Part shown: positions 1,097 to 37,745 of the stretch, in pieces
Layout of the letters: every line of letters starts with the position of its first letter
Numbering within the stretch: position 1 is the first letter of the stretch
Source of the DNA: Muribaculaceae bacterium
GTDB lineage: Bacteria > Bacteroidota > Bacteroidia > Bacteroidales > Muribaculaceae
Reading direction: 5' to 3'
DNA: 38,599 bases
Assembly: GCA_017557665.1 (NCBI GenBank)
Contig: JAFYYI010000061.1
Span: forward strand, 1 to 38,599
Notes under the pieces: model-generated
Seen by the model: only the letters and a program-made list of their open reading frames with translations
Told to the model about the DNA's origin: nothing
Database searches by the model: none
Position numbers and translations under genes: made by a program

Positions 1097-1111
1097 ATGT
1101 GGTACCTCCGG
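1097..1111. repeat. Left attachment site (15-bp core repeat)
   Basis: Perfect copy of 6113-6127. It corresponds to part of the T-stem, the 3' acceptor strand, the discriminator and the next three bases of tRNA-Phe. The flanking bases differ from the other copy (g/t outside, t/g inside), so the identity is exactly 15 bp. Confidence 0.85.
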
Positions 1112-1296
1112 TAACACAAATATCACATTTATTAACTCTATAAGAATTTGCTTTTACTGATTATCAGCACTTTAATAATCTAAATGATGGTGTAAAGATA
1201 TAATAAAATGTAATAGAATGTAAAAAAATTGCCAGTAAAATTTGCCAGTAATTGAATTTTATCTATCTTTGTGGTGGATTTAAAAATGATATTACT
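1112..1296. promoter_or_regulatory. Left end of element: integrase arm-site repeats and int promoter
   Basis: This AT-rich segment has two direct copies of TTGCCAGTAA (1229-1238 and 1242-1251). Close relatives, GCCAGTTA, occur three times near the other end (6011, 6051 and 6062). Such short repeats beside both att cores are what arm-type integrase sites look like. A Bacteroidetes promoter, TTTG at 1241-1244 then 19 bp then TATCTTTG at 1264-1271, drives int. Its -33 box overlaps the second repeat, which would let bound integrase repress its own gene. Repeats and promoter boxes are seen; the function is inferred. Confidence 0.65.
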
Positions 1297-2676
1297 ATGC
1301 TACAAACAAGATTTGAATTAAGCAACAAGCCCACTCGCACTGGTGGACTTGCCATTATGCTGGTGATTTACATTGGTGGCAAACGCAAAAGAATATCCAC
1401 CCATATTGAAGTAAACACCAAGAGCAATTTCAACTACAAAGCCAAGAAGGGGCATTGGATAACTGGTGTGCCTGATAGTAAATCTCTTAATCAAAGTTTA
1501 AGTAATTTTATAACCGAAGCCGAAGCCAAATATAAGGCACTGGATGAAGGGGCATCAGCAGAAAGTGTAAAACTCGCCCTTAAAGACAAAGACAAGAGCG
1601 ATTCTTTCATCCAGTATGCACATGACTACTTGCAAACCTACTATGACCGGGGGCAACTATCCTACTGGAAGGCTGTCAAGAAATCATTCAATAAGTTTGA
1701 GAAATTTGCCAAGAGCAAAAATTATAGTGATGTGTCCTTTAATGACCTTTCACCAAGAATGATTGAGGACTTCAAGACATTCTTGATTAAGCAAAGGAAT
1801 AGCCGACACCCTGAAATGACCTTGAAGGCATCCACCATTAACCACACCATTAAGCAAATAAGGTTGATTGTCCTGGATGGAATTAAACATGGCAAACTTG
1901 CAGAAAGCAAAGACCCATTCAAGTTATATAAACCCGACAAAAAAGCCGAGGTGGAAAAGTCCAAATTGACTGATGATGAAATCAAAGCCCTGGAAGGACT
2001 TGAACTGGAAGAAGGCAGTTTGTTGTGGCATTGCCGTAATAGTTTCCTTTTCTCATACTATGCAGCAGGGCTTCGGATTGGCGATTTGCTCCGGATGCGT
2101 TGGATCAATATCCAAGATGGCCGACTTATCTATATTATGATGAAGAATGGGAAAGGAAGGAACTTAATACTTGTTCCACAAGCAAGAGCCATTCTTGCCA
2201 AGTACCATTCCGAAGAATCAAAACCTACCGATTTTATCTTCCCATTCCTGGCCAACGAGAAGGCACCATTTATAAAATGGTTAGACAACACCGAAACCAT
2301 GCCAGTAGAGGTCAAGAAAACTTTTCTTAATGCCATCAGTCGCAAAACTGCGCTAATCAATAAGTACCTTCCTAAGCTGGCTGAAAAGGCTGGCATAGAT
2401 AAGAAATTAAGTACCCACATTGCAAGGCACTCATTTGCTCACCAAGCAATGGAGATGGGCATCACTGGAAGCGAGGTACAAAACCTTCTTGCCCACAGCG
2501 ACCTATCAACCACGCAACAATATATGGGAAGCCTGGACACATCGGAAGCCGATGCAGCCCTTAACAAAGTCTTTTCATCCGGCAAGCCCATCGATAAGAA
2601 ATCTCAACTGATAGAACTGATTCAAGGCATGAATGAAGAACAACTGGCAGCAATGCTGGAGAAGATAAACCAATAA
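1297..2676 (+). CDS. Tyrosine recombinase / integrase of the tRNA-Phe element
   Basis: Site-specific recombinase of 459 residues that should insert and excise the element by cutting in the 15-bp core. The N-terminal half holds an arm-binding region and a SAM-like core-binding domain. The C-terminal catalytic domain shows the full set: Arg260 (GLRIGDLL), a lysine in the KNGKGRN hairpin, His374-x-x-Arg377 (HIARHSF), His400 (LLAHSD) and nucleophile Tyr409 (QQYMG). I chose the ATG at 1297; the frame is open back to a TTG at 1252, but that lies upstream of the promoter's expected start site. The following gene begins 12 bp later, so the two are probably cotranscribed. It resembles integrases of Bacteroidetes mobile elements. 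Confidence 0.93.
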   Translation: MLQTRFELSNKPTRTGGLAIMLVIYIGGKRKRISTHIEVNTKSNFNYKAKKGHWITGVPDSKSLNQSLSNFITEAEAKYKALDEGASAESVKLALKDKDKSDSFIQYAHDYLQTYYDRGQLSYWKAVKKSFNKFEKFAKSKNYSDVSFNDLSPRMIEDFKTFLIKQRNSRHPEMTLKASTINHTIKQIRLIVLDGIKHGKLAESKDPFKLYKPDKKAEVEKSKLTDDEIKALEGLELEEGSLLWHCRNSFLFSYYAAGLRIGDLLRMRWINIQDGRLIYIMMKNGKGRNLILVPQARAILAKYHSEESKPTDFIFPFLANEKAPFIKWLDNTETMPVEVKKTFLNAISRKTALINKYLPKLAEKAGIDKKLSTHIARHSFAHQAMEMGITGSEVQNLLAHSDLSTTQQYMGSLDTSEADAALNKVFSSGKPIDKKSQLIELIQGMNEEQLAAMLEKINQ

Positions 2677-2688
2677 AGACCAACTTCA

Positions 2689-3321
2689 ATGGAACAATCA
2701 TTTAAAGAAAAAGCAATAGAAGTACTGGCGAGATATGGACTTGAAGCCACTGATGCAGTAATTTCGGAATTGTATGAGGGATTCCAATTGTCAAAACAAA
2801 CCGACAACCCATGCAGCACCGAGGAAGAAGAATTGTTGCTGCTTCTTCACATGTGCGAGGATATTGAGATTAAAGGTACCATCAGACACCCATTAGGCCA
2901 GTTTATCAAATCACAAGCACATAAAGTCACTCTTTCGGACTATAAAGCCAGGCTGGAAGAACTTATCAAGCAATCGTACTTTAAGAGATTCAGCAATAAA
3001 GAAGAAATCAATTACGATAACCTGGCAGAACATATTAGGTTAAAAAAAATAATGATGAAGGGTGCAATATTCAATCGCAATGAAGCGTATGGGGCTATGG
3101 CGCACCAGGCAATTGGAATACTCAATAAGGTGAAAGACTTCAATAGTAAGCGTATGAATCAAACAAAGCAGTATAGTATCATCTATGACCTAATGCAGCC
3201 TTTTATCAGCAGCACTCCCCCAAAAGACATTTCAATCATGGTGGAGAGAGAAAAGCGAGGTGAGGTGAAAAACTGGCTTAAAGCATTCACAAATTCTTAT
3301 AAGGCGCAAAAGGATATTTAA
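2689..3321 (+). CDS. Uncharacterised element protein, 210 aa
   Basis: I do not recognise this protein. It is predicted to be soluble and mostly helical, with no signal peptide or membrane segment. It has a run of acidic residues followed by leucines near residues 44-53 (TEEEELLLLL) and a Lys/Arg-rich central and C-terminal part. It starts 12 bp after int and is followed by a terminator at 3340-3378, so int and this gene form one unit. A recombination accessory or regulatory role would fit that linkage, but nothing in the sequence proves it. Confidence 0.75.
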   Translation: MEQSFKEKAIEVLARYGLEATDAVISELYEGFQLSKQTDNPCSTEEEELLLLLHMCEDIEIKGTIRHPLGQFIKSQAHKVTLSDYKARLEELIKQSYFKRFSNKEEINYDNLAEHIRLKKIMMKGAIFNRNEAYGAMAHQAIGILNKVKDFNSKRMNQTKQYSIIYDLMQPFISSTPPKDISIMVEREKRGEVKNWLKAFTNSYKAQKDI

Positions 3322-3339
3322 TAAACTATTGATAATCAA

Positions 3340-3378
3340 GTGGGTAAAAATTCAACTTTTTATCCACTATTTTTTCCC
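3340..3378 (+). terminator. Intrinsic terminator after the int operon
   Basis: Arms 3340-3350 and 3357-3367 form an 11-bp stem with one G-T pair and a six-base loop. TATTTTTTCCC follows. It separates the int unit from the next operon. Confidence 0.75.
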
Positions 3379-3400
3379 AATTCCTACAAATCCACCCCAT

Positions 3401-3408
3401 TACCTTTG
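3401..3408 (+). promoter_or_regulatory. -7 box of the second element operon
   Basis: TACCTTTG, about 64 bp before the HTH gene at 3472 and just after the terminator. The -33 region is not a clear match. Confidence 0.55.
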
Positions 3409-3471
3409 CAGTGCATTCCAGGAACAAAGTAGCGATGTTGCGATTTGAAACCCCTGATGCATTCAACTTAA

Positions 3472-3783
3472 ATGAGTACAAAAGAGACAAACAACCAGGC
3501 AAGGCCTACTATCGTGATGCTTCCGGAAGCCGAATGGGAAAACATCAAAGGCTTATTGAGCGAAGTAAAGAACACACTGAAAACCAAGTCAGCTGAAGAA
3601 ATCAATTCCCAATGGCTTGAATCCGACAAAGCAAGAGAGTTACTGGGAGTAAGCCGGAAGACCTGGCAGACCTACCGGGATAACCGAGTGTTGCCCTTTG
3701 TTCAGTTTGGCCGAAAAATCTTTGTGCGCAGGGCAGATCTTGAAGCCTTCATGGAGAAGCACTTAATCATGGCAAAGGCATGA
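3472..3783 (+). CDS. Helix-turn-helix protein, excisionase type (HTH_17)
   Basis: Protein of 103 residues with a C-terminal winged HTH of the MerR/excisionase type. SDKARELLGVSRKTWQTYRD forms the helix-turn-helix, and the wing carries VQFGRKIFVRRADLEAFM. The N-terminal 45 residues look helical (IKGLLSEVKNTLKTKSAEE) and may dimerise. Proteins like this in Bacteroidetes elements act as recombination directionality factors or regulators, which is my inference here. Its stop codon overlaps the next start (ATGA at 3780-3783), so translation is coupled to the 161-residue protein downstream. Confidence 0.85.
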   Translation: MSTKETNNQARPTIVMLPEAEWENIKGLLSEVKNTLKTKSAEEINSQWLESDKARELLGVSRKTWQTYRDNRVLPFVQFGRKIFVRRADLEAFMEKHLIMAKA

Positions 3784-4265
3784 GCAACAAGAGAACATTG
3801 AAAGTGGCTTCCTATAGTCTAAAGCAAGGCACTGCAACAAGCTATTATCTTGAAGATAGCAATGCGGTTTGGCCACTTCCGAGAAGATTGAGCATTAGCT
3901 CTAATGACATGACCCATGTAGTAAGAGCCGGGCGCATGAACTACCGCAAGTCGGTGGGGCAACTTATTGGGGGCTTCACAAGGGAAGAAACAAGCCCATT
4001 GAAAGCCTATAAGCCCTTTAAGTTACGCACCCAGTTATGGGAGGTTGATGGGCATCCTGGACTGGCCTATGGCACTACTGGCATAACAAATCAGCAGGGC
4101 AAAATCAGCGATACTGGTGACCTGGTGTTGCTGTACCAGGTTGATGAGCGCACCATTAAGATTTATTATGTGGAAGGGGCTGGTACCCCTGATGGGTTGG
4201 CCGAGGTGTTAAAACTAATTGATGAAGGGGAGCGAACTTCACAGCCCACACCCCTTCGGATTTAA
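3780..4265 (+). CDS. Uncharacterised element protein, 161 aa
   Basis: I do not recognise it. The protein is soluble and mixed alpha/beta, with basic patches (NKRTLKVAS, RLSISS, VVRAGRMNYRKSVG). It begins in a 4-base ATGA overlap with the HTH gene and ends 8 bp before the next gene, so the three genes form one tightly coupled operon. That coupling suggests it works with the HTH protein and the 236-residue protein. Confidence 0.75.
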   Translation: MSNKRTLKVASYSLKQGTATSYYLEDSNAVWPLPRRLSISSNDMTHVVRAGRMNYRKSVGQLIGGFTREETSPLKAYKPFKLRTQLWEVDGHPGLAYGTTGITNQQGKISDTGDLVLLYQVDERTIKIYYVEGAGTPDGLAEVLKLIDEGERTSQPTPLRI

Positions 4266-4273
4266 AAAATGAT

Positions 4274-4984
4274 ATGCGCAAAGATAATACTTTTGACCGA
4301 AGGTACATCAATTTTCCGATAACTATTTTGCGGACATTCCCTGAGCAGCCGAAGCAAACACTTGTGCTGGCATTGCGGTATAGTTTAGGCCACCACATGC
4401 TGGCTAAGGGGAAAACTCTCAACGAAGCAAAGGACTATCTTTTGATTCCACCGAATTGGGTCTTTCATGAGGAACAATGCCGTAATGATTACATTAAGAA
4501 TCATGGCGGAGTGCAATGTGGCATTAATCGTGAGTCTTTTCTATTTTGGTTATATGATATCGACACTTGTTCCGAATTTGAGCAAATGAAGCTGCTAATG
4601 TACCTTGCTGCCCATTCTATTCTCGGCACTGGCCGAGGGAAGGTAGTCAGAACTAATTTCCGTATGCTTTTCAGTCGCATGGCTGGCCGACAACAACCAT
4701 TTGCCAGCGATGCCGAATTGCTTGCCAATGCCCATCCTAAAATCGCAGCATGGTATACCACAAGAAAGCGAAGGACACTATTGCGAGGGATATTTGAACT
4801 GGGAATTTGCAACTTCCCCGGCAGGGGAGTATGGCTTGCCTATGGCCATCAACAAAAGGACATAGACAGACTTGTGGCCGAGGTAGAGCGCAGAAGGTAC
4901 AAAGACCCCAGCGAGCAAACCTATTCCGCCATGCTCAAAGAAGCAAAGGCAAAGGCCAATAATATCAGGCCAGCACCACCCTAA
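4274..4984 (+). CDS. Uncharacterised element protein, 236 aa (candidate replication or maintenance protein)
   Basis: I do not recognise the family. The protein is soluble and basic, with a strongly charged C-terminal half (TTRKRRTLLRG and EVERRRYKDPSE). No relaxase, primase or helicase motif is visible. It is the last gene of the HTH-161-236 operon and lies directly before a noncoding segment holding repeated AATTGC and GGGGTCCCA motifs. An initiator-like DNA-binding role is possible from that position alone. A minus-strand frame overlapping its end (4778-5209) lacks support and is not called. Confidence 0.7.
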   Translation: MRKDNTFDRRYINFPITILRTFPEQPKQTLVLALRYSLGHHMLAKGKTLNEAKDYLLIPPNWVFHEEQCRNDYIKNHGGVQCGINRESFLFWLYDIDTCSEFEQMKLLMYLAAHSILGTGRGKVVRTNFRMLFSRMAGRQQPFASDAELLANAHPKIAAWYTTRKRRTLLRGIFELGICNFPGRGVWLAYGHQQKDIDRLVAEVERRRYKDPSEQTYSAMLKEAKAKANNIRPAPP

Positions 4985-5339
4985 TAAGGGGTCCCAAAAT
5001 GTTTGGAATCCTGGTGTGAAATCTCTCTTGGGGGATGTCGCAAGGTAGGCTAAGTGGGGGTCCCATTGCACCTTTGCTTTTGGTGTGACTTTTATACCGC
5101 GACGATACCCAGTTAATTGCCCAGGAAGCGCACAAATTGCACCTGGCTGCACCCATGTAAAAGGACAGCCAATTGCCCTACCGATACAAAAGAAGCCAGC
5201 AGAGTGCAATTAATCACTATTGTTAGGGCAAATGGGCAAGGAATTGCCATCATGCGAAGGGAGTGTTTTATGATTATCTCTACTTAATATCCAATTTAGT
5301 CACTCATGCAATCTAATGGCAGAAATAGTTTGCCAATCC
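4985..5339. other. Noncoding element segment with repeated short motifs
   Basis: No gene is seen here. Two copies of GGGGTCCCA occur at 4988-4996 and 5057-5065. AATTGC occurs at 5115, 5135, 5171 and 5242 and, inverted, at 5206, with spacings of 20, 36, 35 and 36 bp. This could be a protein-binding array such as an origin or operator region, but the motif is short and the function is unproven. Confidence 0.45.
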
Positions 5340-5371
5340 TTTGTCCTGATGGGAAGAATTTTGTACCTTTG
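5340..5371 (+). promoter_or_regulatory. Promoter of the second HTH gene
   Basis: TTTG at 5340-5343, 20 bp, then TACCTTTG at 5364-5371: a good Bacteroidetes promoter. It places transcription start near 5378, so the ATG at 5390 is the usable start and an upstream ATG at 5306 is not. Confidence 0.75.
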
Positions 5372-5389
5372 AGAACAAAAATAATTGAT

Positions 5390-5809
5390 ATGGATTTATC
5401 GTATATCTTTGATGAGTTAAGCAGGGAAGAACAACAAATGATTATAGAGGACATTGCTGCCATTGCAATCAGGGCAGCATTAGACCACCTTGCGACAATG
5501 ACCGATGCCGAGAAACAAGCCGTAATGCAGTCTGCAATGGGTAACCGACTGATGCCAGCCAGTGTGGTCTGCAAGCATTTGGGAATATCAAGAAGCACAT
5601 TGGGGCGATGGGTGAAGGCAGGGCGATTACCGATGCACAAGATAGGGGGAAGGTGCTTTATTGATTCAGCCGACATAGGTAGGGCTACCCAGCGACACAA
5701 ACACCAAGTAAGGCCAATAACACAACCTAAGGCAGAACCAGCGACACTACCTTCAGGCCAAGCATTCATAATAACCCACCGAAGTAATCAATATCAGGAT
5801 GACTGGTAA
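5390..5809 (+). CDS. Second helix-turn-helix protein of the element (HTH_17/excisionase type)
   Basis: Protein of 139 residues. An acidic N-terminal region (MDLSYIFDELSREEQQMIIED, then further helix) is followed near residues 55-98 by an excisionase-type HTH (MPASVVCKHLGISRSTLGRW) with a short wing (KIGGRCFIDSADIG). The basic, Gln- and Pro-rich tail looks disordered. It has its own promoter and is the gene nearest the tRNA-side att site, a common place for an excision factor. It could also be a repressor. It differs from the HTH protein at 3472 in length and N-terminus, so the element has two distinct regulators of this class. Confidence 0.85.
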   Translation: MDLSYIFDELSREEQQMIIEDIAAIAIRAALDHLATMTDAEKQAVMQSAMGNRLMPASVVCKHLGISRSTLGRWVKAGRLPMHKIGGRCFIDSADIGRATQRHKHQVRPITQPKAEPATLPSGQAFIITHRSNQYQDDW

Positions 5810-6112
5810 TGATGCCCATTCTAAACCCATGTACAGCTTTAATAAGGATTAAACCATTATCCCTTATATATTATATAAAGTCTTATCCCTTATTAATTTA
5901 TTATTAAAGGTGAACACCACCTGAACACCATTCAACACACATGGGGTACAACAAAGTGAACACCATGATGGTCACCAACAAAAGGTGTTACGCAAGCCAG
6001 CATCAAGAAAGCCAGTTAAGTCCAAAATCAGTACCAAAACTGGGTGTTTTGCCAGTTATATGCCAGTTAAAAAAGAAAAAGTGACTGATACCCAGCCACT
6101 TGTCTGCTAATT
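5810..6112. other. Right end of element: AT-rich tract, direct repeats and integrase arm-type repeats
   Basis: No gene is seen. Seen features: TTATCCCTTA twice within an AT-rich stretch (about 5850-5909); TGAACACCA three times (5911-5919, 5922-5930, 5957-5965; spacings 11 and 35 bp); and GCCAGTTA three times (6011-6018, 6051-6058, 6062-6069), matching the repeats near the left end. The last set is a likely integrase arm-site array. The TGAACACCA set with the AT-rich tract could be excisionase sites or an origin. Confidence 0.55.
6069..6100 (-). terminator. Element-supplied terminator for tRNA-Phe
   Basis: Arms 6080-6087 and 6093-6100 form an 8-bp stem with one G-T pair and a five-base loop. 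On the minus strand it is followed by TTTTTCTTTTTT. It starts 16 nt beyond the tRNA 3' end, almost the same distance (15 nt) as the stranded terminator at 1049-1085. It lies inside the element, so the element brought it. Confidence 0.8.
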
Positions 6113-6127
6113 ATGTGGTACCTCCGG
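6113..6127. repeat. Right attachment site (15-bp core repeat, in tRNA-Phe 3' end)
   Basis: Perfect copy of 1097-1111. It spans the last 12 bases of tRNA-Phe and three beyond, so crossover here leaves the tRNA sequence intact. Confidence 0.85.
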
Positions 6128-6187
6128 GGATCGAACCAGGGACACGCGGATTTTCAGTCCACTGCTCTACCACTGAGCTAAGGTACC
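6116..6187 (-). tRNA. tRNA-Phe (GAA)
   Basis: 72 nt fold as a standard cloverleaf: a perfect 7-bp acceptor stem (GGTACCT with AGGTACC), a D-arm GCTC/GAGC, an anticodon stem GTGGA/TCCGC with loop CTGAAAA (anticodon GAA), a five-base variable loop, and a T-loop TTCGATC. CCA is not encoded. The T-stem has one U-C mismatch (positions 51 and 63). This gene is the insertion target of the element at 1097-6127, whose core repeat regenerates its 3' end. Confidence 0.95.
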
Positions 6188-7186: not shown

Positions 7187-7249
7187 TTTAGATGTTAGAC
7201 TTTAGACGTTAGACTTTAGACTTTAGACGTTAGACTTTAGACTTTAGAT
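7187..7249. repeat. Tandem heptamer array, nine units
   Basis: Nine consecutive 7-bp units of TTTAGAC or GTTAGAC type begin on the base after the UbiA-gene stop codon and end 29 bp before the next gene. Only the first base and the last base of the unit vary. Confidence 0.95.
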
Positions 7250-7278
7250 TTGACTGGGGACCAAATAACTGAAACAAG

Positions 7279-34002: not shown

Positions 34003-34304
34003 GACAAAAAATAAAAATGTCTAATTTTTTTACGTTTTTTTGACGTTTTACCGTTTTCCGTATGAAATAATCCGCCGAGCGCTTGGCTAATGGCTCTGCT
34101 CATCCTAACTTTGTCATGGTATGATGTAATGCACAACATATCATGACATGATTTTTTATACTCACAGGGCGAGCCTTCAGACAGCCAAAAACAAATCGGA
34201 TTCGGCGAAGTACAATGTTCTCACGCCCAAAATCAAACATCCCTCGGCAAGGGAACAGATGCCACGGTTGAGGAGAACCAACCCACGGCGACATGATTAT
34301 TCTT
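34003..34304 (+). promoter_or_regulatory. Noncoding region and promoter of the large LRR gene
   Basis: TTGG at 34083-34086, 19 bp, TAACTTTG at 34106-34113 form a good promoter. The leader to the start codon is about 185 nt and has no recognisable riboswitch, only a small CCCT/AGGG hairpin near 34241. Before the promoter, a T-rich stretch at 34019-34055 begins with TGTCTAATTTTTT, also found at 11228. No gene is seen. Confidence 0.6.
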
Positions 34305-37300
34305 ATGAAACATCTAAACATTTTGCTCAGGGCCGCCCTGTTACTGCTCATCCTGCCCATTTCACTGGGTGCGGATGCCATCACCGAATTTTACTATCAG
34401 GGCATCATGTTTCGTTTCACGGGCAACGGCACCTGTAAAGTCATCCAGCCTGGATGGTACAGCGAGAACGGCTACAGTGGAGTCATCAATATTCCTCGCA
34501 CGGTAAATGCTGCCGTCTATGATGCCTGGTCCAGCAACTCCACCGGTACCAACGTCTCGCTTATTGTCACTGGCATTGACGACAATGCTTTCAGAGACTG
34601 CTCGGGACTCACCAGCGTCACCATCCCTAACACCGTGACCAACATCGGCAAAAATGCCTTCTATGGATGCCGGAGTCTCACCAGCGTCACCATCCCCAAC
34701 TCGGTGGACACTATCCAGGCTTCGGCTTTTGCCAAGTGTTGGGCACTGACCTCGGTAAACATCCCCAACTCGGTTCGATATCTGGGTTGGAACGCTTTCT
34801 ATGACTGTTCTGCGCTCACCAGCGTCACCATATCTTCGTCCGTACGAGAGTTGAACGGCACTTTCTGCAGCTGCTCGGCGCTCACCAGCGTCAATGTGCC
34901 GTCATCAGTCGTTAAACTCGATCGCGCGTTCATCAACTGCTCCAGTCTCACCGACGTGAAACTCCCCGCTTCGCTCATCACCATCGGCGAGAACACGTTT
35001 GAAGGTTGTACCCTGCTGTCAAGCATTTACATCCCTAACTCTGTGGCCACCATCGGCGAGAGGGCTTTCAGCGGCACTGCCTTGACAGGCATTGAGCTTC
35101 CCGAGACGCTCACGACGTTGGGCAAGTATGCCTTTTTAAGCTGTAACAACCTGGAAAGCGTTTCAGTCAGGGCAATGAATCCGCCATCGATGTTCGACAG
35201 CGACTGCTTCTCCAATTACACCTATCAAAATGCCATCCTGAAGGTTCCTCTGGCTGCGACCCAGGTCTACACGACGACCGACTGGTGGAACTTATTCGTC
35301 CCTGACAATGTAATTGGCTCCAGCGACCTGGATCACCCCTACGACTTCACCGTTAACGGAATTTACTATTTGAAAACTGGCTCGTCGACAGTCAGTGTGG
35401 TCGCCGGTGACAGCCCTTACAGCGGCAACGTGGACATTCCCGCAACAGTCTCCAACAATGGCATCACCTATAACGTGACGGCTATCGGCAACAGTGCATT
35501 TGAAGACTGCACCGGACTGACGGCCGTCAGCATCCCCGGCTCGGTGACAAGCATCGGCAGTAACGCGTTCATGAACTGCCGCAGTCTGGGCAGCATCACC
35601 CTGCCCGATGGCCTGACGTCCATCGGTGACAATGCATTGAAGGGATGTGAAAGTATTTCAAGCCTGACGATACCCCAAGGGGTCACCTACCTCGGCGAGA
35701 ACGCTCTGGCGGGCATGACAGGTCTGACTTCACTCACGTGGAACGCCGCCAATTGCTGGACCAACGGCAACCTGGCGACCGCGACGCTCAGAAACGTGAC
35801 CATCGGCGAGGGCGTCGAACTGCTCCCGTGGGGCTTTGTCGCAGGGGCGCCCATCACCTCAATTCAATTCCCGCAATCACTCGAGACCATCGCGGGCAGC
35901 GCTTTTGAAGGCTGCAACGGCTTAACGTCCCTGACCATTCCCGAGGGTATCACCGCCATCGGCTCCAGGGCTTTCTATAACTGCTCATCGCTCACCGCCC
36001 TTCACTGGAATGCCCGTGAATGCTGGACCAACGGCGACATGCCGACGCCCGACATCACCAGTGTTTCTATCGGCAACCAGGTCGAGGTATTGCCCACGGC
36101 CTTCATCCTGGGCTCTCACATCACGGCCATCGACATCCCCATCTCGGTCAAGGTCATCGGCAACAGCGCGTTCAGCGACTGCACTGAAATGACCAGCATC
36201 ACGATTCCCGACTCGGTGCGCAACATCGGCGCCCTGGCGTTTAACGGCTGCACCGGCCTGACAAGCCTGACCATCGGCAAGAGTGTGGATGCCATTGCCG
36301 ATGACAGCTTCAGCAACAGCACGGGCCTCACCTCACTCACCTGGAACGCTCGCCATTGCACGAGCAATGGCAACATGACCACCAGTAACATTGAGCAGGT
36401 GACCATCGGCAATGAAGTGGAAGTACTGCCTTGGGGATTTGCAGCCAACTCCAAAATCACCCATGTGGAACTGCCTAACTCGCTAACCAACATCGGCAAC
36501 GAGAACTATTCTGAATATGATCGACCAACAGGTGCTTTCGAGAATTGTTTCTCGCTGACAAATATTGTCATCCCTAATTCAGTAACCACTATCGGCATCG
36601 ACGCTTTCTATAATTGCCAGGGTATCACCAATATTGAGATTCCCAGTTCTGTCACCAATATCAATAGTTATGCGTTTTCCTACTGCACAGGGCTGACGAC
36701 TTTCACCACCGGTGAGAATGTCGAGCGCATCGGCAGTTCGGCCTTTGCCTACTGCAGCAACCTGGAACAAGTCAACCTTAATCTGGGACTGAAAACTATC
36801 GGCGGCAACGCATTCTACTATTGTTGGAAACTCCAAAGCATCGACGTGCCCAACACGGTAACCTCTATGCGCTGGGCCTTCTCGGACTGCGGCATTTCCT
36901 ATCTTAAACTGCCCGATGGTCTCACCTCAATTGGCATGTATGAATTCGAGGGGTGCTATAACCTCAAATATATCAACATCGGCAGTGGGGTAAGACGGAT
37001 TGCATCTTGGGCCTTCAGCCACTCAGGCATTACCAGCATGGACATTCCTGACAATGTCCTGGAGATCGAAAGCTATGCATTCGAGGAATGTTACGACCTG
37101 CAGAGCGTCACTATCGGCAACGGATGCCAGTATTTGGGACAAGGCGCGTTCTACATGTGCAACTCTCTCCAGTTCATCTCCGTCAGCGAGGACAATCCCG
37201 TCTATGACTCGCGCAACGACTGCAACGCCATCATTGAGACGGCCACCAACAGGCTTGTGCATGGTTGCCCCGGCAGTACAATTCCGAGGTCAGTAACCAT

Positions 37301-37745
37301 CATTGGTGAAGGTGCCTTTGACTACTGCCCTGCTTTGATGGAGATCACTATACCCAGCAGAGTTAAGAGCATCGAAGATGATGCCTTCGGCTATTGTCCT
37401 GGACTCACCAGCATCACGTGCCTGGTTAAGGACCCCATCGAGATTAGCGACTGCACCTTCGACCTTTGTTACGACGCGACCCTCTACGTCCGCAACGAGT
37501 CGGTCGAGGCCTACAGGAATGCTCCCGTCTGGAAGAATTTCTCGTATATTGAAGGCATCGACTATACCGAGCCAGGCGACCTTGACGAGAACGGCGAGTT
37601 GACCATCTCTGACGCGATCAACCTGATCAACCTTATCATTAACAACACTGTCGTCGAGGATCCGAATGGCGATGTCAACGGCGACGGTATCGTGAACATC
37701 TCTGATGTCATCGAACTCATCAACACAGTGCTCAACGAGGTCTAA
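34305..37745 (+). CDS. Large BspA-like LRR protein with C-terminal dockerin-like domain
   Basis: Exported protein of 1146 residues. Signal peptide (about 1-25) is followed by LRR_5 arrays. The first array runs to about residue 340. A fresh cap domain (VNGIYYLKTGSSTVSV, about 350) restarts a second, longer array, so the protein looks like two fused LRR units. The second contains three longer modules (WNAxxCxxNG ... VEVLPxxF; starts near 477, 566, 678), and near 970 the BspA motif NPVYDSRNDCNAIIETATN. The last about 55 residues have two Ca-binding dockerin-like repeats (GDLDENGELTISDAINLIN and GDVNGDGIVNISDVIELIN). An in-frame ATG at 34293 is an alternative start. Likely role: adhesion or ligand binding at the surface. 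Confidence 0.9.
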   Translation: MKHLNILLRAALLLLILPISLGADAITEFYYQGIMFRFTGNGTCKVIQPGWYSENGYSGVINIPRTVNAAVYDAWSSNSTGTNVSLIVTGIDDNAFRDCSGLTSVTIPNTVTNIGKNAFYGCRSLTSVTIPNSVDTIQASAFAKCWALTSVNIPNSVRYLGWNAFYDCSALTSVTISSSVRELNGTFCSCSALTSVNVPSSVVKLDRAFINCSSLTDVKLPASLITIGENTFEGCTLLSSIYIPNSVATIGERAFSGTALTGIELPETLTTLGKYAFLSCNNLESVSVRAMNPPSMFDSDCFSNYTYQNAILKVPLAATQVYTTTDWWNLFVPDNVIGSSDLDHPYDFTVNGIYYLKTGSSTVSVVAGDSPYSGNVDIPATVSNNGITYNVTAIGNSAFEDCTGLTAVSIPGSVTSIGSNAFMNCRSLGSITLPDGLTSIGDNALKGCESISSLTIPQGVTYLGENALAGMTGLTSLTWNAANCWTNGNLATATLRNVTIGEGVELLPWGFVAGAPITSIQFPQSLETIAGSAFEGCNGLTSLTIPEGITAIGSRAFYNCSSLTALHWNARECWTNGDMPTPDITSVSIGNQVEVLPTAFILGSHITAIDIPISVKVIGNSAFSDCTEMTSITIPDSVRNIGALAFNGCTGLTSLTIGKSVDAIADDSFSNSTGLTSLTWNARHCTSNGNMTTSNIEQVTIGNEVEVLPWGFAANSKITHVELPNSLTNIGNENYSEYDRPTGAFENCFSLTNIVIPNSVTTIGIDAFYNCQGITNIEIPSSVTNINSYAFSYCTGLTTFTTGENVERIGSSAFAYCSNLEQVNLNLGLKTIGGNAFYYCWKLQSIDVPNTVTSMRWAFSDCGISYLKLPDGLTSIGMYEFEGCYNLKYINIGSGVRRIASWAFSHSGITSMDIPDNVLEIESYAFEECYDLQSVTIGNGCQYLGQGAFYMCNSLQFISVSEDNPVYDSRNDCNAIIETATNRLVHGCPGSTIPRSVTIIGEGAFDYCPALMEITIPSRVKSIEDDAFGYCPGLTSITCLVKDPIEISDCTFDLCYDATLYVRNESVEAYRNAPVWKNFSYIEGIDYTEPGDLDENGELTISDAINLINLIINNTVVEDPNGDVNGDGIVNISDVIELINTVLNEV

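Follow-up and report, generated by a model that had tools for sequence, protein, structure and literature searches.

Phage satellites shape gene flow and phage predation, and Bacteroidota are a dominant phylum of the gut. Among the closest described systems are the phage-inducible chromosomal minimalist islands (PICMIs) of Vibrionaceae. In PICMI115 the genes run int - iolg - alpA - up1 - prim - up2; packaging in PICMIs yields helper-length concatemers and involves no capsid remodelling (PMC10803314). A second paper names the known satellite families, and its two 'Bacteroid-' mentions concern NBU elements, which are integrative mobilisable elements (IMEs; PMC11389934). Lateral transduction in Bacteroides has been reported, in a paper that does not use the word 'satellite' (PMC12946183). 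Among the titles and abstract openings listed by our text searches of the open-licence PMC literature (for two of them the top 15 of 40 and of 2,490), none describes a phage satellite in Bacteroidota. Here we analyse a 38,599-nt stretch of contig JAFYYI010000061.1 from a Muribaculaceae bacterium ("the window" denotes this whole stretch), which holds between positions 1097 and 6127 a small integrative element of Bacteroidota spanning 5,016 bp. We regard its nature as a mobile integrative element as nearly certain. The sequence shows that it inserted site-specifically at the 3′ end of tRNA-Phe, that the site is empty in congeners, and that it is kin to a family of small elements with a recurrent gene order at other tRNAs. 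The element family most likely represents minimal phage satellites, a reading that we hold with moderate confidence, and the packaging step proposed for the window's own element is drawn by analogy from its kin.

Insertion at the tRNA-Phe gene

The first-pass annotation had described about 5 kb of AT-richer DNA bounded by a perfect 15-bp repeat from the tRNA-Phe 3′ end. Both repeat copies, the tRNA and the genes lie where it placed them (Table 1): the 15-mer ATGTGGTACCTCCGG has only two occurrences on both strands of the 38.6-kb window, at 1097 and 6113, and the right copy consists of the tRNA-Phe 3′ end plus 2 nt. The shift in base composition stands out against the right flank (G+C ~38–47% in the element, 52–61% in the flank) and is less clear against the left (48.5%, bases 1–1000).

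We searched for empty sites with the protein, presumably UbiA-like, that flanks the tRNA-Phe gene. A first pass gave best identities of only 52–55%; in the genus of genome G003, a threshold of E ≤ 1e-60 was passed by 33 of 101 genomes, the best with 90% identity, and we place the host of the window, by this similarity, near that genus. Seventeen of the 30 returned loci were inspected (L114–L130). The tRNA-Phe gene adjoins the UbiA-like gene in nine of them (L114–L122), none of which contains the element, and all 73 tRNA-Phe bases are identical in L114–L121. Up to and including the 15-bp core, the joined flanks of the window match three of these loci: L119 exactly over the terminator-like spacer and the tRNA, L120 and L121 with one spacer mismatch each. 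Among the remaining loci, one base differs inside the core (L114, L115, L118), the left-side sequence is different (L116, L117) or the spacer is shortened (L122). Because the joined flanks recreate the empty site of related genomes, the insertion is real beyond chance; the element genes are absent from the tRNA-Phe sites of congeners, so that they do not behave as core genes of this position, which would have spoken against the initial proposal.

The tRNA-Arg(CCT) site of a related element (L003) was treated in the same manner. Its left flank matched 57 of 61 congeneric genomes, and 30 returned loci were inspected. One (L067) is G003 itself; left-flank gene, tRNA and right flank are contiguous in eight of the 29 others (L068, L072, L073, L074, L078, L080, L082, L086), and contiguity was not seen in the other 21 within the ~1.5 kb viewable. 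Beside the same left-flank gene, the end of tRNA-Arg is partly duplicated over a short length in L070 (23 nt) and L090 (28 nt), as if other elements use the same site. The presumably UbiA-like and HAD-type genes that flank tRNA-Phe in the window adjoin instead, in genome G857, the left end of a tRNA-Arg element (L109, 0.6–4.1 kb), by chance or through rearrangement.

Gene content and the element family

Six genes lie in the element, and scans of their proteins against Pfam, PHROGs, NCBIfam and PADLOC recognised known domains only in the integrase and in two helix-turn-helix (HTH) proteins of the HTH_17 type. The scans bear out the initial gene assignments: (i) an intact tyrosine recombinase with a 459-aa open frame (Phage_integrase 5.7e-21, Phage_int_SAM_5 3.7e-13, Arm-DNA-bind_5 3.3e-6 in Pfam), (ii) two excisionase-type HTH genes (HTH_17 1.2e-11 and 1.4e-9), and (iii) three proteins of 210, 161 and 236 aa that match nothing with an E value better than 0.03. 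As the first-pass annotation had stated, domains of a relaxase, a transposase, a capsid or cargo were not found in the six proteins; the same four libraries gave no significant structural gene (capsid, tail, lysis) and no prophage gene (terminase large subunit, capsid, portal, tail). Both HTH proteins have PADLOC mad1 matches as well (0.001 and 7e-8), and one matches NCBIfam MADS1 far under the cut-off; we read these matches as reflecting the shared HTH. The 161-aa protein is predicted to be a beta-sheet protein of eight strands with a C-terminal helix (AlphaFold2, mean predicted local distance difference test score 82.7), and fold comparison of this model gave no confident or outstanding structural match.

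In a set of 5.8 billion proteins, close relatives (E ≤ 1e-3) numbered one for the 236-aa, six for the 161-aa and five for the 210-aa protein. A search of a species-genome collection with the alignment of the 161-aa family (F1) gave 37 stretches that fit one of two peptide patterns; confirmation succeeded for 10 of them, which is a lower bound. The F1 profile was detected in three of the 393 Bacteroidales genomes sampled, among them the genome on which the sample is centred, in 1 of 395 genomes of a phylum sample, again the centre genome itself, and in 6 of 101 genomes of the G003 genus, four of them already known. Together, 15 distinct loci were obtained (the window, L001–L010, L024, L025, L109, L110), and since all were found through the F1 hallmark, its presence in 15 of 15 is by selection. 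The database searches proposed at the outset returned few relatives and recovered a recurrent gene order, at other tRNAs.

Hosts are labelled as Bacteroidales for L001–L008, as Bacteroidetes for L009 and as a Chitinophagaceae metagenome-assembled genome for L010; the family spans several host species and tRNA sites, with hallmark identities of 25–52% across distant hosts. Twelve loci are bordered by a tRNA, of six kinds (Phe; Leu-TAA, two; Arg-CCT, four; Leu-CAA, three; Arg-ACG; Ala-GGC), and three show none (L008, L009, L025), of which L009 and L025 run off their contigs. End repeats of 13–25 bp reach from the tRNA end to the far side in 11 of the 12 (not in L002), at spacings of 5,016, 5,028, 5,244, 5,461, 5,491, 5,602, 5,650, 5,996, 5,999, 6,079 and 7,551 bp; in L007 a possible second left copy lies at 8,995 bp. 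The relatives at other tRNAs have end repeats of their own, and the outcome that would have told against the element, other copies without a repeat, did not occur.

A full-length integrase is present in 13 of the 15 loci. The contig of L008 begins within the element, and L002, from Phocaeicola faecium, has only a 131-aa integrase-like fragment on the left, with two opposite-strand recombinase-like open reading frames (ORFs) further left (these features at L002:5390-8656); this member looks damaged or overrun by another element. An HTH protein is found in all 15 loci, in L024 and L110 only by an all-ORF scan, and diverged homologs of the 210-aa protein (F4) occupy the same slot in L001, L002, L004, L007 and L025. 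The block of HTH, F1 and 236-aa-family (F5) genes is inverted relative to the integrase in L110. Pairwise distances correlate between integrase and HTH, integrase and F1, and HTH and F1 (Spearman 0.75, 0.47 and 0.80, reached by 2, 38 and 0 of 1000 Mantel shuffles, respectively), and the gene set therefore largely travels together. Between the HTH and 161-aa genes, L003 carries a 117-aa ORF (L003:9633-9983) with a weak match (0.0017) to Alt-like phage ADP-ribosyltransferases, and L006 and L008 have another 101-aa ORF in common in this slot.

Table 1 Features of the integrative element in the window
Feature	Position	Strand	Remarks
attL core, left end repeat ATGTGGTACCTCCGG	1097..1111	.	15/15 identical to 6113-6127
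Promoter-like site before integrase, Bacteroidetes-type TTG-N-TAnnTTTG	1242..1271	+	Pattern match only, without chance control
Tyrosine recombinase (integrase), 459 aa, open frame	1297..2676	+	ATG 1297; longest ORF from TTG 1252
210-aa protein, family F4, adjoins integrase	2689..3321	+	No recognised domain
103-aa HTH_17 protein, AlpA/excisionase-like	3472..3783	+	HTH_17 1.2e-11
161-aa hallmark protein, family F1	3780..4265	+	Present in 15/15 loci (loci found through F1)
236-aa protein, family F5, proposed to bind iterons and initiate replication	4274..4984	+	Slot and nearby repeats
Promoter-like site before last gene (139 aa)	5341..5371	+	Pattern match only, without chance control
139-aa HTH_17 protein	5390..5809	+	Longest ORF from 5306; position holds TerS in some kin
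Candidate replication origin: AT-rich stretch, then TGAACACCA repeats (5911, 5922, 5957)	5839..5985	+	Repeat count
attR core, right end repeat ATGTGGTACCTCCGG	6113..6127	.	Overlaps 3′ end of tRNA
tRNA-Phe(GAA), integration target left intact	6115-6187	-	ARAGORN

Elsewhere in the window, ORFs that we take to encode BspA-like leucine-rich-repeat proteins lie at 1–940, cut by the window start, and at 34293–37745, and a tandem repeat of short TTAGAC/TTTAGAC-like units (7187–7255) separates the UbiA-like and HAD-type genes.

Proposed replication and packaging, and competing explanations

The replication slot has two alternative occupants. F3, a protein of 315–355 aa whose predicted fold is that of a rolling-circle-type initiator, is complete in 10 of the 15 loci (L002, L003, L004, L006, L007, L008, L010, L024, L025, L109), and F5 is present in four (the window, L001, L005, L110); in L009 the slot is cut off. 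A truncated F3 remnant precedes F5 in L005, and the start of an ORF in L110 apparently resembles F3, which together suggest that F5 replaced F3. By Foldseek, one F3 model (from L002) resembles RepDE/pT181-type initiators (4cwc, 4cwe, 4cij) at TM scores of only 0.41–0.45, and the F3 alignment has conserved Tyr, Asp, Glu and His columns, candidates for the catalytic tyrosine and metal ligands. F3 had no sequence match among PDB chains, the copies of L002, L003, L006 and L010 matched no Pfam initiator family, and that of L109 matched only Phage_CRI (0.016). For the 236-aa protein, the slot, the nearby repeats and the setting of homologs outside the family suggest a replication initiator, and the TGAACACCA/TGTACACC repeats are proposed as its putative binding targets. 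TGWACACC occurs three times in the window against 0.30 expected and is enriched in all four F5 elements; an unguided 7-mer cluster test of the window gave 3 against a shuffle maximum of 3, so that shuffles were not exceeded.

Outside the family, F5 homologs adjoin a primase (L034) or lie inside a prophage (L035, ~5.7–16.2 kb), where an array of 11 AACAGCA copies comes after the 236-aa-family gene and before TerS (terminase small subunit) and tape-measure genes. The F5 module may have come from a relative of this prophage. The prophage would also agree with the elements being decayed prophage remnants, as would the partly worn appearance of L002 (integrase fragment), L003 and L005. However, a similar gene order of 5–7.6 kb recurs with end repeats in the distant hosts described above, and since independent decay would hardly converge on such order, size and ends, we regard prophage decay as very improbable.

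In 6 of the 15 loci the replication gene is followed by TerS, which belongs to one or the other of two unrelated families. The first kind (L001, L002, L004, L109) is recognised by PHROG matches of 7.5e-11 (L001) and 6e-5 (L002) and by homology among the four; the second is of the Terminase_2 kind (L010 and L024, 6.1e-21 and 3.4e-24). L009 and L025 allow no call. A search with the L004 TerS found 6 of 101 genus genomes, three of which (G004, G857, G001) hold F1 elements. The other three loci (L111–L113) have no 161-aa gene and the order HTH - unknown - 311/312-aa Rep - TerS - tRNA-Leu; as they were found via TerS, their TerS rate is uninformative. An integrase lies further left in L112 and L113, the contig of L111 ending before it; in L112 the HTH gene is weakly matched (5e-4). 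The two Rep proteins scanned (L112, L113) match Phage_CRI, a gpII-type replication domain, at 1e-21 and 1.3e-18, and end repeats lie 7,715 bp apart in L112 and 4,700 bp apart in L113, with none in L111. These sister elements suggest a wider satellite-like superfamily.

We propose the following life cycle. The integrase would excise a circle across the 15-bp core, aided by an HTH_17 protein as excisionase or activator and perhaps also by the neighbouring 210-aa protein. The 236-aa protein would bind the repeats beside the AT-rich stretch and start replication, a role taken in most kin by the rolling-circle-type initiator. A helper phage would package multimeric element DNA. In kin that have TerS, this terminase small subunit of the element itself would guide the step; in the window, the 139-aa HTH protein or a helper-like pac/cos site would do so. 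The element would integrate at tRNA-Phe in the next cell.

Several observations weigh against phage satellites. The label holds more firmly for the kin than for the window, where no clear TerS is present. Its 139-aa protein is an excisionase-like or TerS-like candidate that looks more like an excisionase (phrog_66 excisionase 7.9e-13, phrog_57 terminase small subunit 1.7e-6), and tblastn gave it no match among phage records. The first and commoner TerS kind is called a transposase-type HTH by Pfam (HTH_Tnp_1_2 2.3e-7). No TerS of either kind was found among all ORFs ≥40 aa in 6 of the 12 tRNA-reaching members (the window, L003, L005, L006, L007, L110), and an all-ORF scan of L008, where no right end is delimited, gave no TerS homolog. 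Apart from the element's TerS, no Terminase_2 was found in G010 and G358, and 11 of 14 host genomes lack one altogether, so that a helper is not apparent. Genes for capsid remodelling were not recognised. Scans of IMG/VR, each restricted to one or two peptide patterns, confirmed no relatives of the hallmark, the initiator or the 236-aa family, and none of the element or hallmark were confirmed in phage or plasmid records.

Rolling-circle folds are, moreover, also found in some relaxases. The elements might be IMEs, excised and moved by a resident conjugative element via their own oriT, with the rolling-circle-type protein of the kin acting as a MobT-like relaxase. Size, tRNA integration and the HTH_17 protein all fit, and relaxase-less IMEs (iOriT) are recognised (PMC11389934). 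Yet no relaxase domain was found in the window (Pfam, NCBIfam), where the 236-aa protein stands in place of the rolling-circle protein, and the TerS of the six kin has no evident use in conjugation; we consider IMEs unlikely, though the most serious of the alternatives. A self-replicating integrative plasmid or cryptic island without its own transfer route, in which the kin TerS would be a captured phage gene serving as regulator, agrees with the integration and probable replication genes, with no transfer gene being recognised in the window and with TerS missing in several kin. It accounts poorly for TerS of two unrelated families following the replication gene and for the spread across host species and tRNA sites, and is improbable.

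Phage satellites remain our preferred reading. The first-pass suggestion of an undescribed mobilised or satellite-like family of Bacteroidales fits the kin (TerS in 6 of 15, rolling-circle-type initiator in 10 of 15) and is too narrow in its hosts, as the family reaches beyond Bacteroidales (L010). We see an even chance for the fuller statement that these are previously undescribed Bacteroidota phage satellites, among the smallest known (~5 kb), with an interchangeable replication module (mostly F3, in others the 236-aa protein with iterons) and TerS of two unrelated families in the next slot. The family's hallmark gene, gene order and att sites can be used to search gut genomes, and the family offers a minimal setting for testing what a satellite requires.

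Comparison with known systems

NBU1 and NBU2 of Bacteroides have a tyrosine integrase, excision genes and a tRNA-end target, like the element described here, and the present elements have about a third to half of the usual size of phage-inducible chromosomal islands (PICIs). The RepDE/pT181-type initiators are resembled in fold only by F3 of the kin, which is not in the window. NBU1 and NBU2 differ in carrying a mobilization protein (PMC11389934). Charybdis elements are likewise small (4.6 kb), in some cases next to tRNAs, and suspected to be viruses or satellites; compared by description only, they differ in their marine archaeal hosts, where known, in ~10 genes, in a proposed structural module and in having no terminase (PMC12324425).

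PICIs combine att integration, an AlpA/MerR-like regulator in Gram-negative representatives, their own replication gene, terS in some and no structural genes (PMC6092414). The window shares with them its own integrase, a specific attachment site and the lack of structural genes, and its two HTH_17 proteins probably provide the regulator (AlpA/MerR-like or Stl-like); terS is found only in some kin, the window having only the 139-aa HTH protein with its lesser TerS match.

The PICMIs differ in their defining DUF3987/DUF5906-type primase, a Pfam domain not found in the window, where the 236-aa protein (or, in kin, the rolling-circle-type initiator) stands instead, and in their optional fis-adjacent location (the prototype lies at fis), the window's element residing at tRNA-Phe and its kin at tRNAs. 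TerS in 6 of the 12 tRNA-borne members and hosts from another phylum set the present family further apart. The likeness lies in few genes arranged by the same logic (integrase, neighbour gene, AlpA, unknown, replication gene, unknown), with no capsid-remodelling genes in the PICMIs and none recognised here; the window has the integrase and AlpA (PF12728 allowed) by which PICMIs are recognised, and the 161-aa hallmark occupies the position of up1 (PMC10803314).

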